The notes beneath the pieces were generated by a model. The model was not told where the DNA came from, did not search any database, and saw nothing but the letters and a program-made list of their open reading frames with translations. A stretch of 64,000 nt of DNA from Calycina herbarum. Its lineage: Eukaryota; Ascomycota; Leotiomycetes; Helotiales; Pezizellaceae. Of the stretch, positions 16,847-37,550 are shown piece by piece (the stretch's first letter is position 1; every line of letters starts with the position of its first letter). The position numbers were made by a program, and so were the translations under genes. The stretch spans positions 124,001-188,000 of the forward strand of contig LLEY01000001.1 in assembly GCA_001414485.1 (NCBI GenBank), in the 5' to 3' direction.

Positions 16847-19401
16847 ATGGGCTTCACCGACGTTGATCAGCTGGCTATCAACACCATCCGTATCTTAGCG
16901 GTGAGTTTTTGCCTGCTTTACCCCTCCATCGGTCTGCGAGGGCGCTTTTTGGGCTCTCGACACCACGATGCTATCACCACGAAGCCATCCCCACGAGAGA
17001 AACTGATTTCAACCCCAGGCCGATGCCACCTTCAAGTCCAACTCGGGCCATCCTGGTGCCCCAATGTGAGTAGCTCGATTGCTTCAATTCGATTTCGCTG
17101 CTAATACCGGTTCGTAGGGGAATGGCCCCAGTCGCACACGTTCTTTTCAACAAGATCATGAACTACAACCCAAAGAACTCATCATGGGTTAACAGAGATC
17201 GATTCGTCCTTTCGTAAGTTCCCATCTATCAGATGCACAATTCCTATCGTCTAGTCTATGAGAGGCCATAGAGTGAGCTCCTGGAGCTTCACTTGGCAAT
17301 ACTTTCTTCGCGAGCTGGGGACTTTCATTGAGAAGCGCGAGGTGCTACCAATTCGAAGCAGCTCGGGAAGCCCGAAATATTGATTAAAAAAATCGTAAAA
17401 AATCAAACTTTTTTTACTAACTTCTATCCTAGCAACGGTCATGCTTGCATGCTCCAATATGCTCTCCTCCACCTTGCTGGGTACAAGCTTTCTATGGATG
17501 ATCTCAAGGCATTCCGAGTACGTCCTCCCACTATATATTTCGGAGCTCATTTGGCTAACAAATGCAACCTTAAAGACAATAGACAGCAGAACCCCAGGTC
17601 ACCCCGAGGCGCACGATACCGATGGTATTGAGGTCACCACTGGTCCTCTTGGTCAAGGTTTCGCCAATGCTGTTGGTCTCGCTATTGCCCAACACCACGC
17701 TGGAGGAGAATTTAACAAGCCCGGATTCGAGCTTATCAACAACTACACATATACCTTTATGGGAGATGGATGCATGATGGAGGGAATTGCCAGCGAGGCT
17801 GCCTCCCTCGCTGGTCATTTGCAACTTGGTAACTTGATTGCCGTCTACGATGACAACCACATTTCCATTGATGGAGACACCAACTGTGCTTTCACCGAAG
17901 ATGTTGCTTTGAGATTCCAGTCATATGGCTGGCACGTTGAGACCGTCGAGGACGGTAACAACGATCTTCAAGCCATCGAGGACGCAATCAAGAAGTGCCA
18001 AGCTGTCAAGGATAAGCCATCCATGATCAAGCTCAAGACCATTATTGGTTTCGGTTCCAAGATGGAGGGTACCCATGGTGTACACGGTGCCCCTCTCAAG
18101 GCAGACGACATTAAGCAGCTCAAGACCAAGTTTGGTTTCAACCCAGAGGAGTCATTTGTCGTCCCACAATCCGTTTACGACTTGTACAACAAGAAGGGTG
18201 CTGAGGGTGCCGCTCTTGAGAAGGAGTGGGAGCAACTTGTTTCCAAATACACTGAATCTCACAAATCCGAAGCTGCAGACTTGAAGCGACGCTTGTCTGG
18301 AGCGCTCCCAGAGGGTTGGGAGAAGAAGTTGCCAGTATACTCCCCATCAGATGCCCCAGTTGCTACCCGAAAGCTTTCTGAGATCGTCCTCCAAGCCATC
18401 CACGAAGCCATCCCAGAATTGGTTGGTGGTTCCGCAGATTTGACCGGTTCAAATTTGACCAGATGGAAGGAGGCTGTCGATTTCCAACCTCCTGCCACTG
18501 GTCTTGGTGACTGGTCTGGACGTTATATTCGATATGGTGTCCGTGAGCACGCCATGGGTGCCATCATGAACGGTCTTGCTGCATACGGAACCGTCATCCC
18601 ATTCGGTGGTACTTTCTTGAACTTCGTCTCATACGCTGCCGGAGCTGTTCGTCTATCTGCACTTTCCCAAGTCCGAGTCATCTGGGTCGCTACCCACGAC
18701 TCCATTGGACTTGGTGAGGATGGGCCAACTCATCAACCTATCGAGACTCTCGCACATTTCCGTGCTCTCCCTAACTGCATGGTCTGGCGTCCAGCTGATG
18801 GAAACGAGACCAGTGCTGCATACTATGTCGCCATGACCTCCAAGAACACCCCAAGCATCCTCGCTCTCTCCCGACAAAATCTTCCCCATCTCGAAAACTC
18901 CACCCTTGCCAACGCAATCAAGGGTGGATATGTTGTTCACGAGGCTGAGAAGGCTGACATCACAATTGTCTCCACCGGTTCCGAGGTCGGTATTGCTGTT
19001 GATGCTGTCAAATACTTGAAGGACAACCACAACCTCACTGCTCGTGTTGTTTCTATTCCTTGCTTCGAGGTCTTTGATGCTCAGACCAAGGAGTACAGAC
19101 TTAGCGTCTTGCCAGACGGTATCCCATCCCTCTCAGTCGAAGTCATGTCAACTATGGGCTGGGAACGATACACCCACGAGCAATTTGGTCTCAACAGATT
19201 CGGTGCTAGCGGTGCCTACAAGGACGTGTACAAGGCATGTTACTTTCCAGAAATTCCAGATGACAAGGGCTAACAGCGCAATAGAAATTCGAGTTCACTC
19301 CAGAGGGTATCAGTAAGCGTGCTGTTGCCACTGTTGACTTCTACAAGGATGTTCCTAACCTCCGTTCTCCTATTAACCGTGCTTTCCAGCAACTCATCTA
19401 A
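16847..19401 (+). CDS. TKL1: Transketolase
   Basis: Thiamine-diphosphate enzyme of the pentose phosphate pathway; transfers two-carbon units between sugar phosphates. Six exons: 16847-16900, 17019-17065, 17118-17213, 17433-17517, 17576-19234, 19285-19401; 685 aa, the usual length. The fit is end to end: [36 protein letters not shown], the ThDP motif GDGCMMEG with the later [32 protein letters not shown], the catalytic acidic region RYGVREHAM, and the C-terminal FNRFGASG-like segment followed by [10 protein letters not shown]. The last intron starts with GC, not GT (AAG|GCATGT ... GGCTAAC ... AATAG|AAATTC). It is required to keep the frame. Intron 3 is long (219 bp). Confidence 0.95.
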
Positions 19402-21403: not shown

Positions 21404-21587
21404 GCTCGATTAGTCTAGTGGTTAAGACGTTCCCTCTCTTACGCAGCATACCTTCCCCTCGTACGCTTGATGGCTTTAAGATTCGAGCCGAATCTTATCT
21501 CCAGGAGAGTATGTGAGGGGTAGGTGCTTCTTAGGAAGTGTGTTGTAGGGCCTGGGTGAGGCATCAGTTCGAGTCTGATATTGAGCA
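21404..21587 (+). ncRNA. tRNA-like RNA gene, copy 1
   Basis: 184 nt. The ends pair as a 7-bp acceptor stem (GCTCGAT / ATTGAGC, one G-U), followed by A. The D arm is GTCT-agtggtta-AGAC, carrying an A box (TAGTCTAGTGG). The T arm is ATCAG-TTCGAGT-CTGAT, carrying a B box (GTTCGAGTC). A T run at 21599-21606 fits Pol III termination. Between the arms, where a tRNA has a 17-nt anticodon arm, there are about 130 nt: a weak stem (TTCCC/GGGTG), a helix CAGCAT/GTGTTG, and a perfect hairpin AAGATTCG-agc-CGAATCTT. The Leu/Ser variable-arm explanation does not fit because the extra sequence replaces the anticodon loop. It is not a canonical tRNA. Confidence 0.7.
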
Positions 21588-21809
21588 TGGATCTTATCTT
21601 TTTTTTCGGCCTTTTTTGGGGCGTGGGGAAAGGGGATTTGGAATGAGAAGTAAGAGTTAGGGAATTGGTGAAGTGAAAGTGAAGAGATGTAAATGTATTT
21701 ACCTCTCTTTATAGCTCCATTGCCCCACTAGTCCCCACATCAATGGACTCCAGGTATATGAGCTAAGTTAAGCTCATTTCAAGTCAATCAAACAAAGTAG
21801 TTGTGGAAA

Positions 21810-22043
21810 GCTCGATTAGTCCAGTGGTTAAGACGTTTTCACCTAACAACGACATTGTAATAATCTTCATTGTTCCCTTCCACGAGGTGCGTCTCGCTCT
21901 GTCGAGTTCCTGGGCTTATGCTGGCCTCTGGGGTGGACTTCCTCATTGTCTGGGGGTTACGACTTTCTCTAGTAACTCTCTTTCCGTGTAGTAGGGTGTC
22001 GTAGGGCTCGGAAGAGGCATCAGTTCGATCCTGATATTGAGCA
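21810..22043 (+). ncRNA. tRNA-like RNA gene, copy 2 (long form)
   Basis: 234 nt. Acceptor GCTCGAT / ATTGAGC then A; D arm GTCC-agtggtta-AGAC; T arm ATCAG-TTCGATC-CTGAT; T run at 22057-22062. The anticodon-like stem is TTTTC/GGAAG. The inner helix CGACAT/GTGTCG and the hairpin AATAAT-cttc-ATTGTT are both present. The 220 bp before it hold no other gene and share a GAAGTGAAAGT segment with the next spacer. Confidence 0.7.
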
Positions 22044-22295
22044 TTAGAGATTCTACTTTTTTAGTATTTATCTTTTTTAATTTATGTTTTCAAGTGGGGC
22101 TGCTAGTAAGAAGGTTCTATTTTGGCAATTTGGGGTTTTGTAGTTAGTGAAAGTGGCGAAGTGAAAGTAAAACGCGATAGACGAACCAACATCACTCCTT
22201 CCTCAACTAACCCATTTACCCCATCCCCCAACCTTTCCTCGCTTCTAACTTAACCAGAAATAAGAACTCTCAACTCTAATTAACAAGTACAACAA

Positions 22296-22479
22296 GCTCG
22301 ATTGGTCTAGTGGTTAAGACGTTTCCCTTATACACGGCATTGTAATAACCTTTGTTATTCCCTCTTCTGATACCAACCCGGGACGGGATAGTCAAGGGAG
22401 GGGTTCCTAAGTATCGAAGATACTCAAGGAAGGTGTCGAGAGCTGGGAAGAATCATCAGTTCGATTCTGATATCGGGTA
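22296..22479 (+). ncRNA. tRNA-like RNA gene, copy 3
   Basis: 184 nt. Acceptor GCTCGAT / ATCGGGT then A, where the G-U seen in copies 1-2 is replaced by G-C. T arm ATCAG-TTCGATT-CTGAT; T run at 22483-22488. Anticodon-like stem TTTCC/GGAAG, helix CGGCAT/GTGTCG, hairpin AATAAC-cttt-GTTATT, and a second hairpin GTATC-gaa-GATAC. This is the only copy with T at the position equivalent to U33. The following 349-bp spacer holds no gene. Confidence 0.7.
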
Positions 22480-22827
22480 TGCTTTTTTGTGTTTTTTTGC
22501 TCAGCGAAGTTAGCAGTTGATTTGGAGTCAGAGAAAGGTTGAATGAAAGCAGCCGGGGAAGATGCCTTTCGTTTGAGAAACTCGGGAAACAAAACTTGGT
22601 AAACTTTTGTCGTCTTGATGTGCTGCTTGATATGTCACAAGTTACTAAAAATAGATAGTGTTTACAACTCTTCTCCTTGCATGATAACCTCACTCCTGCT
22701 TCTTCCTTCCTGCTTCCTTCCTCATATCCTAACCCACACACTTCACCCAGCCCACCCAAAGTGTACTTAGCCAAACATAACGCAACTCTCTCCTAATTAA
22801 AAGCCAATCAAATATGAGGCTGAAAAG

Positions 22828-23012
22828 GCTCAATTAGTCTAGTGATAAAACGCTTCCTCCTTATGCGGCATTGTCATAACCTTCATTATTCCCCTTTCCG
22901 AGAGCATGTCACATTGGTGAATCCTTAAGGGAGGGCTTCTGGGCTTGGGCTTAATTAAGGAAGATGTCGTGGGGCCCTGGGAGAGTCATCAGTTCGAATC
23001 TGATATTGAGCA
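22828..23012 (+). ncRNA. tRNA-like RNA gene, copy 4
   Basis: 185 nt. Acceptor GCTCAAT / ATTGAGC, fully Watson-Crick (A-U where copy 3 has G-C), then A. The D stem has one mismatch (GTCT/AAAC). T arm ATCAG-TTCGAAT-CTGAT; long T run at 23021-23033. Anticodon-like stem CTTCC/GGGAG, helix CGGCAT/ATGTCG, and a weaker ATAAC...TTAT hairpin. The 305-bp spacer after it holds no gene. Confidence 0.7.
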
Positions 23013-23316
23013 TTTTATTCTTTTTTTTTTTTTGGTGTTGTTGAAACCCCTCTTTTACAGTAAGCGACGCTCGATTATTATAAAGGCTTAGCAGCTTTGC
23101 TCGTCATGAGTCTCAGCATCTGTTTTAGTGTCTCTTTTGATCGATAATAGGTTCTGCTTTTACTTATTATCAAGAACCGTGGTTAGTTTTTGGAATTAGT
23201 TTTCAGATATCTCCTGTCTACTTCACCTTGGCATTTGACATGTTCACTATCTTCTATTTCCTTAATCGAAAATAAGTAACGCCTTCTCATAACAACAGCC
23301 AATTGAAACAACAACA

Positions 23317-23550
23317 GCTCAATTAGTCTAGCGGTAAGACGCTTCTCGCTTACACGACATGCAATAACACTTGTTATTCCCTTGACCTTCGACTCCCGAC
23401 TCGTGCCTCACCGGGGTTCCATTCGGGTCCAACCCTGATTGCTGTCCCTACTGGGAGTAGACGACTTTGGGCTCGTTAGGGGCGGCCTCCCTTCTAGGAA
23501 GGGTGTCGTAGCGCGTAGAAGAGTCATCAGTTCGATCCTGATATTGGGCA
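23317..23550 (+). ncRNA. tRNA-like RNA gene, copy 5 (long form)
   Basis: 234 nt. Acceptor GCTCAAT / ATTGGGC then A; D stem GTCT/AGAC; T arm ATCAG-TTCGATC-CTGAT; T run at 23555-23560. Anticodon-like stem CTTCT/AGAAG is perfect; helix CGACAT/GTGTCG; hairpin AATAAC-actt-GTTATT; second hairpin CCCTTC-ta-GGAAGGG next to the helix. The extra length is internal. Confidence 0.7.
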
Positions 23551-23560
23551 ATTATTTTTT

Positions 23561-37030: not shown

Positions 37031-37217
37031 TACTCGATATCAGAATCGAACTGATGACTCTTCTGGTCCCAACCTAGGCACCCTTCCTGTTGGGAAGGAA
37101 GGCCTTTCAAAAACGCGACCGATGCTGGGCTGCAAAGGGGTTTATTGAAAGGGAATAGCAAAGGTTATCACAATATCTGTGTAGAGGAGAAGCATCTTAC
37201 CACTAGACTAATCGAGC
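37031..37217 (-). ncRNA. tRNA-like RNA gene, copy 6
   Basis: 187 nt on the minus strand. Acceptor GCTCGAT / ATCGAGT then A, with G-C at the covarying position. D stem GTCT/AGAT; T arm ATCAG-TTCGATT-CTGAT. The anticodon-like stem CTTCT/AGAAG is perfect. The second hairpin CCTTCC-caaca-GGAAGG is present. The inner CRRCAT/RTGTYG helix is not well kept. A T run (37018-37023 in plus coordinates) follows the 3' end. The copy lies 13.5 kb from the array in the opposite orientation, with its own A box, B box and terminator. Confidence 0.65.
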
Positions 37218-37352: not shown

Positions 37353-37550
37353 CTTTGATGACTCTTCTTAGACCTCGGCACCCTACAATGAGGAAGACCC
37401 CCTAAGTCCGACCAAGGTAGATCAAGCCTAGTGGTGTCTAGAAAATAAACTTTATTCAGGGGAAGTTCAGTCATGTTTGTTTGAAAAGGCCAAAGGTTAG
37501 GGAATAAGGTTATTGCAGTGTTGGTGTAAGGGAGAAGAGTCTTGCCACCA
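37353..37550 (-). pseudogene. Decayed tRNA-like RNA copy 7
   Basis: Keeps TGGTGGCAAGAC (end of the D arm), CTTCTCCCTTACACC, GCAATAACCTTATTCCC, GGGTGCCGAGG and AAGAAGAGTCATCA. The T-arm loop and B box are lost (AAGATCC instead of TTCGATT) and no acceptor stem can be drawn. Confidence 0.6.

Follow-up and report, generated by a model that had tools for sequence, protein, structure and literature searches.

Candidate tRNA-Val-derived Pol III RNA genes with a structured domain in place of the anticodon loop form a dispersed family in Calycina herbarum

We analysed a window of 64,000 nucleotides from the ascomycete Calycina herbarum (assembly GCA_001414485.1, contig LLEY01000001.1, positions 124,001 to 188,000 of the forward strand); window coordinates are counted from its first nucleotide. 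Downstream of a transketolase gene (17441-19273), whose protein has its best match in Hymenoscyphus fraxineus (93% identical), five tRNA-like genes follow one another on the plus strand: c1 (21404-21587, 184 nt), c2 (21810-22043, 234 nt), c3 (22296-22479, 184 nt), c4 (22828-23012, 185 nt) and c5 (23317-23550, 234 nt). A previous sequence-only reading had described this tandem array, and its lengths are reproduced here with start-to-start spacings of 406, 486, 532 and 489 nt. The genes align at both ends, and the spacers share one 30-nt match of 83% identity (E ∼7e-4). To these five copies we add a sixth, a relic and a genome-wide family. The sixth copy, c6 (37031-37217, minus strand, 187 nt), lies outside the array span and has a full cloverleaf and an internal T5 run. 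The decayed relic (37356-37550, minus strand; nhmmer E 1.9e-11) is situated directly upstream of c6; no acceptor stem or T arm is visible in it, and the preserved copies can be set against it as a natural comparison.

All five array copies pair 7/7 in the acceptor stem, carry a T arm with the loop TTCGANN, and have A at the discriminator place; a run of at least four T begins 0-13 nt past the 3' end, in agreement with the terminator-like runs reported earlier. The D arm attributed to every copy is indeed present in c1-c5, but with one mismatch in c4 and 3/4 pairs in c2. The anticodon stem (27-31/39-43) spans an insert and is paired 5/5 in c2-c5 (TTTTC/GGAAG, TTTCC/GGAAG, CTTCC/GGGAG and CTTCT/AGAAG) and 4/5 in c1 (TTCCC/GGGTG, one mismatch). 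Since letters 27-31 find their partners ∼120-170 nt further on, it is the anticodon loop that contains the extra sequence; by our script boundaries the insert is 119-169 nt long in c1-c5. The inner 6-bp helix, here P1, is paired 6/6 in c1-c4 and 5/6 in c5, where the alignment has a gap. The AATAAC hairpin (hairpin A) holds as a shared element of the window-type copies, but it is absent from c1 and paired 4/6 in c4. On the alignment, c1-c5 show an irregular GGAAG hairpin (hairpin B), with 2-4/5 cells paired; it becomes clearer in other copies.

The elements are laid out as follows in c3, the sole copy among c1-c5 with U33 (that a single copy has it had been noted before). The 5' strand of the acceptor stem (22296-22302) pairs with 22472-22478 and is followed by the discriminator A at 22479; the D arm (22305-22320) overlaps the A-box region, and the T arm ATCAG-TTCGATT-CTGAT (22455-22471) overlaps the B-box region. 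The anticodon stem joins 22322-22326 with 22446-22450 across the insert. Within the insert, P1 is formed by CGGCAT (22335-22340) and GTGTCG (22433-22438), and encloses hairpin A (AATAAC-CTTT-GTTATT, 22344-22359), a helix P2 with a copy-specific domain V (22360-22403, approximate limits) and hairpin B (TTCCT ... AAGGAA, 22404-22431; placed from the sequence, as the alignment register is off by one column and gives 3/5 cells there). A T6 terminator lies at 22483-22488, and a motif AAATAAG, also seen near some ordinary tRNA genes, at 22258-22264. All these elements are on the plus strand.

The five-copy cloverleaf array is confirmed as real and beyond chance. A strict cloverleaf scan with a free insert, run on both strands of the window, returned five places, all of them family copies (c4 was missed on account of its D stem), and the same scan returned none in 20 Markov-resampled windows. 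ARAGORN called none of c1-c5 in the window and reported part of c6 as tRNA-Val. The Rfam tRNA model found c3 on the whole window, and c3 and c1 on a short stretch. At curated scores, RF00005 alone matched in the window and 15 family loci, which rules out a known Rfam family other than tRNA there and includes no snoRNA family. Our covariance model R1 matched short pieces of copies in the window. A search for relatives in viral contigs gave 20 pattern matches that by eye are phage tRNAs of ordinary length without the insert, and a transketolase scan gave nothing.

We searched the 68.8 Mb assembly (379 contigs) with letter patterns and a DNA search; reversed-pattern controls gave 0 or 1 match per strand. 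Copies with both ends number at least 30 and are spread over 15 contigs. This is a lower bound: there were 34 T-arm matches, from which 30 loci were cut, with C212, C223, C344 and C358 (3 mismatches) left out, and the count also excludes C46:494475 (L067; no 5' end) and the hairpin pattern matches on C311 and C318. A second array is located on contig C80, and three copies on C336. Beside the 30 copies there are four fragments: a split gene on C80, L060, L125 and the window relic. In the split gene (C80:29633-29906, in L048) the 5' half, with its upstream motif, is on the minus strand and the 3' half on the plus strand, a layout that a small inversion would produce. Sorted by eye, the copies fall into subfamily A, the window type (18 copies); subfamily B, on C4, C20, C94 and C119, with the T stem CTCAG/CTGAG; subfamily C, on C336, with GCTTGGT/ACCGAGC, in which L045 and L049 are loosely placed; and subfamily D, on C99 and C190. 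Over the family the insert ranges from 75 to 294 nt by the script boundaries.

Two-sided changes that preserve pairing, already pointed out for the array, exceed both shuffled and slid controls in the cloverleaf and in the subfamily A insert. For the tRNA ends we used 24 of the 30 copies, dropping L049, L054, L057, L066, m7 and m8 as damaged or hard to place. Stems of 7, 4, 5 and 5 pairs have 96.8% of cells paired, a value flattered by the dropping of the six damaged or unclear copies, against 32-46% when the partners are slid by 1-3 columns. The same 24 copies hold 51 two-sided changes, compared with 11.4 in shuffles, which leave the relatedness of the copies in, and 5-18 in slid versions; none of 500 shuffles reaches 51. 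In the anticodon stem four of five pairs changed on both sides, and pair 31-39 occurs as five pair types. The comparison shows the predicted cloverleaf to be kept by compensatory change; outside subfamily A, it shows structural selection on the putative tRNA body alone.

Thermodynamic folding gave mixed results. The minimum-energy fold of c3 by itself lacks the cloverleaf, and 12 of 200 shuffled versions do no worse. Among single folds of eight copies, L068 yields the cloverleaf with the junction, L062 and L104 the cloverleaf, and the other five are incomplete. A consensus fold of the four subfamily B copies keeps the acceptor and T stems and gives the D-arm and anticodon region other partners; covariation among these near-identical copies (mean column identity 91%) is almost nil (-0.06 kcal/mol, 1 pair). 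The folding energy of the inserts is moderately low when set against shuffles, with a mean z of -1.31: it is below 0 in 25 of 30, below -1.5 in 12 of 30 and above 0 in 5 of 30.

In subfamily A the comparison extends to the insert. A 43-pair structure that includes it has 89.2% of cells paired in all 18 copies, none dropped, against 43-51% in slid versions; part of this advantage is built in, since these same sequences helped to define the structure. There are 35 two-sided changes against 16.6 in shuffles and 11-21 in slid versions, and they affect four pairs each in P1, hairpin A and P2 and two pairs in hairpin B. RNAalifold on the 18 cores mainly recovers the acceptor, D, anticodon, P1, hairpin A, hairpin B and T stems. 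P1 reads CGACAT/GTGTCG, with the variants CGATAT/GTATCG, TGACAT/ATGTCA and CGGCAC/GTGCTG; hairpin A reads AATAAC/GTTATT with a loop that is mostly CTTY, and AATAAT/ATTGTT in c2; hairpin B reads CTTCC/GGAAG. P2 (75.6% of cells paired) and hairpin B (80.0%) are irregular helices. P1 appears weak on the alignment in L051 (3/6), L068 and m7 (2/6) and L046, L054 and m8 (4/6), in some of them by misplacement. Domain V, closed by P2, differs from copy to copy and measures 18-216 nt by our own cuts. When two V domains were searched in the genome as possible captured repeats, each matched itself alone, as single-copy sequence. The covariation thus shows the window-type insert as a predicted four-way junction of P1, hairpin A, P2 with V, and hairpin B.

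The loci bear the marks of type 2 Pol III genes: A- and B-box regions in the D and T arms (the T loop is changed in m8) and a T-run terminator. In 29 of the 30 copies, all but L052, a run of at least four T starts no more than 20 nt past the 3' end. Inside the 30 inserts (4372 nt, T being the commonest base) there are six such runs against 24.4 expected, and none of 1000 shuffles is as low, a statistic that the near-identical subfamily B copies enter four times; runs of at least five T number 1 against 7.2 expected. Twenty-five inserts are free of T4 or longer runs, and c6 (T5), L049, L054, L056 and L064 (T4) have one or two each. Selection for Pol III read-through would be expected to produce such a shortage of internal T-runs. 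In the 90 nt upstream, AAATAAG is present at 17 of 32 loci (the 30 copies and two Val genes) against 6 of 28 ordinary tRNA genes, and TCAA at 26 of 32 and 23 of 28, respectively. These frequencies give a weak hint of a possible upstream Pol III element common to the family and ordinary tRNA genes.

The tRNA ends point to an origin from tRNA-Val. Introns of ∼26 and ∼22 nt interrupt the ordinary Val genes L080 (CAC) and L102 (UAC), respectively, whose 5' halves come near those of the family; the 5' half of c3 agrees with L102 at 24 of 26 letters. Among 18 ordinary tRNA genes, a set without every isotype, Val is nearest for 25 of 30 copies by the 5' 26 nt and for 22 of 30 by both ends, and Trp comes out closest for between 3 and 7 copies. 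Four copies, L104, L062, L064 and L045, combine a Val triplet with a long insert; L104, with a differing T stem (GAGAG/CTCTC) and the triplet CAC, adjoins L062 on C99. Ordinary Val tRNAs, then L104, L062 and L064, and finally the window type make up a series on which the origin of such RNAs can be tested.

We lean towards reading these loci as a family of Pol III RNA genes derived from tRNA-Val, in which a structured domain has replaced the anticodon loop. The best explanation includes a Val ancestry and birth-and-death evolution of the copies, and the family resembles a novel type of non-coding RNA more closely than it does functional tRNAs. Pol III would transcribe the whole RNA up to the terminator, the tRNA body would supply the internal promoter, signal the processing of the ends and stabilise the product, and the insert would be kept in the working RNA as its effector. 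The common core of P1, hairpin A and hairpin B probably binds one shared protein, and domain V may give each copy its own specificity. A bolder version, which we put forward tentatively and think rather unlikely, is a natural 'tRNA chassis': Val bodies would form a promoter, processing and stability module that displays a protein-binding junction with V, so that ∼20-30 RNAs would share one partner and differ in their targets, in the manner of guide RNAs.

Of the three possibilities raised by the sequence-only reading, the Pol III RNA family is the best supported, by the covariation, T-run avoidance, terminators and dispersal; the tRNA with a large structured intron fits by position, but most copies would be unlikely to decode normally; and the SINE is disfavoured by the promoter copied in subfamily B and by the missing A-tail and target-site signal. 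The intron is the main rival, and a doubtful one: the inserts would be very long introns removed at 37/38, and the products would be tRNAs, most of them with a changed anticodon and some perhaps functional as Val tRNAs. The insert does sit at the canonical intron position, and L080, L102 and other ordinary tRNAs of this genome carry introns. In tRNA splicing the rule is an intron after position 37 together with an A-I pair; this pair is possible in 14 of the 25 copies with a clear loop, as in both ordinary Val genes, but impossible in the other 11. U33 is kept in 5 of the 25 (c3, L059, L063, L064 and L068), and positions 34-36 read CAC or TAC in 4 of the 25 (L045, L062, L064 and L104) and many different triplets in the others; normal decoding is therefore unlikely for most copies. 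Against removal also speak the two-sided changes in hairpins A and B, which are distant from the splice sites. L064 without its insert has the loop CTTACAC on a Val(UAC) body, and this copy in particular, with a few others, might be spliced into working Val tRNAs. Taken together, the copies appear to have given up decoding.

The remaining explanations are much less probable than an RNA family retaining its insert. It is very unlikely that the genes act as DNA, by docking TFIIIC and Pol III or as chromatin boundaries, with the RNA incidental: dispersed, promoter-complete copies and the arrays on C1 and C80 would suit such a role, whereas two-sided changes keep pairing in stems that do not belong to the A- and B-box regions and internal T-runs are avoided. 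A tRNA-derived SINE, or another retroposed element that has both tRNA ends, would likewise be dispersed, multi-copy and tRNA-derived, but in subfamily B, on four contigs, pairwise homology extends from ∼-57 to between +31 and +40; one pair is alike from -118, and in one pair a further 49 nt upstream are common to both copies. Since this homology begins upstream of the gene, DNA was copied together with the promoter. Over the 30 copies the longest word shared between flanks averages 6.53 for a copy's own flanks and 6.36 for mismatched ones (P 0.23), giving no signal of target-site duplication, and no A8 run of a 3' A-tail occurs in the 80 nt downstream. We consequently set the SINE aside as disfavoured and grant it a very slight chance. 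Equally improbable are decaying tRNA-Val pseudogenes, with which the fragments, four or more in number, and a set of damaged copies would agree, but not the pairing-keeping two-sided changes in 24 copies, the T-run avoidance and the terminators.

Comparison with known systems sets the family apart on several sides. With intron-containing tRNA genes (L080, L102; RF00005) it shares the cloverleaf, the A- and B-box regions, the insert in the anticodon loop and the discriminator A, but its inserts of 75-294 nt compare with 34 and 30 nt in the two Val genes under the same rule, the window subfamily has a conserved junction, and U33 and the anticodon are mostly lost in the family. Fungal tRNA-derived SINEs are dispersed, Pol III-type elements of tRNA origin, as the family is; the family differs in having its T arm and acceptor strand at the extreme 3' end, in the copied promoter of subfamily B and in the missing A-tail and target-site signal. 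Archaeal pre-tRNA-Trp has an intron that is a box C/D guide, hence a functional RNA domain at the tRNA intron position; that tRNA decodes, however, and the family has no snoRNA match in the window or 15 loci. Bacterial YrlA RNAs and MHV68 TMER RNAs are non-coding RNAs built on a tRNA-like module with a domain that is not known to lie inside the anticodon loop, and the family, although built on such a module too, has its domain inside this loop and thus another topology. Ponchon and Dardel reportedly engineered a tRNA scaffold with an RNA domain grafted on the anticodon stem and a protective tRNA. The arrangement on the stem is alike; the family is natural and multigene and has copy-specific domains, and its stabilising role is proposed here.

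Should the mature RNA retain its insert, the family would be a lineage-grown class of non-coding RNA, in which tRNA genes have been turned into carriers of folded domains, a step known from engineering. tRNA introns are among the subjects treated in PMC4090602, and in a limited literature search we noticed nothing on tRNA bodies with such an insert family. The long insert would account for tRNA finders having overlooked or partly called the family loci. Some other tRNA-like loci came up in the genome search. L083 (C26) and L095 (C317) are tRNA-Trp(CCA) genes with rather different bodies; the T arm of L083 (ATCAG/CTGGT) is family-like. L099 (C336:461666-461723) is an odd tRNA-like composite that ARAGORN reports as a SeC tRNA with an intron and that is probably an Arg-like pseudogene.
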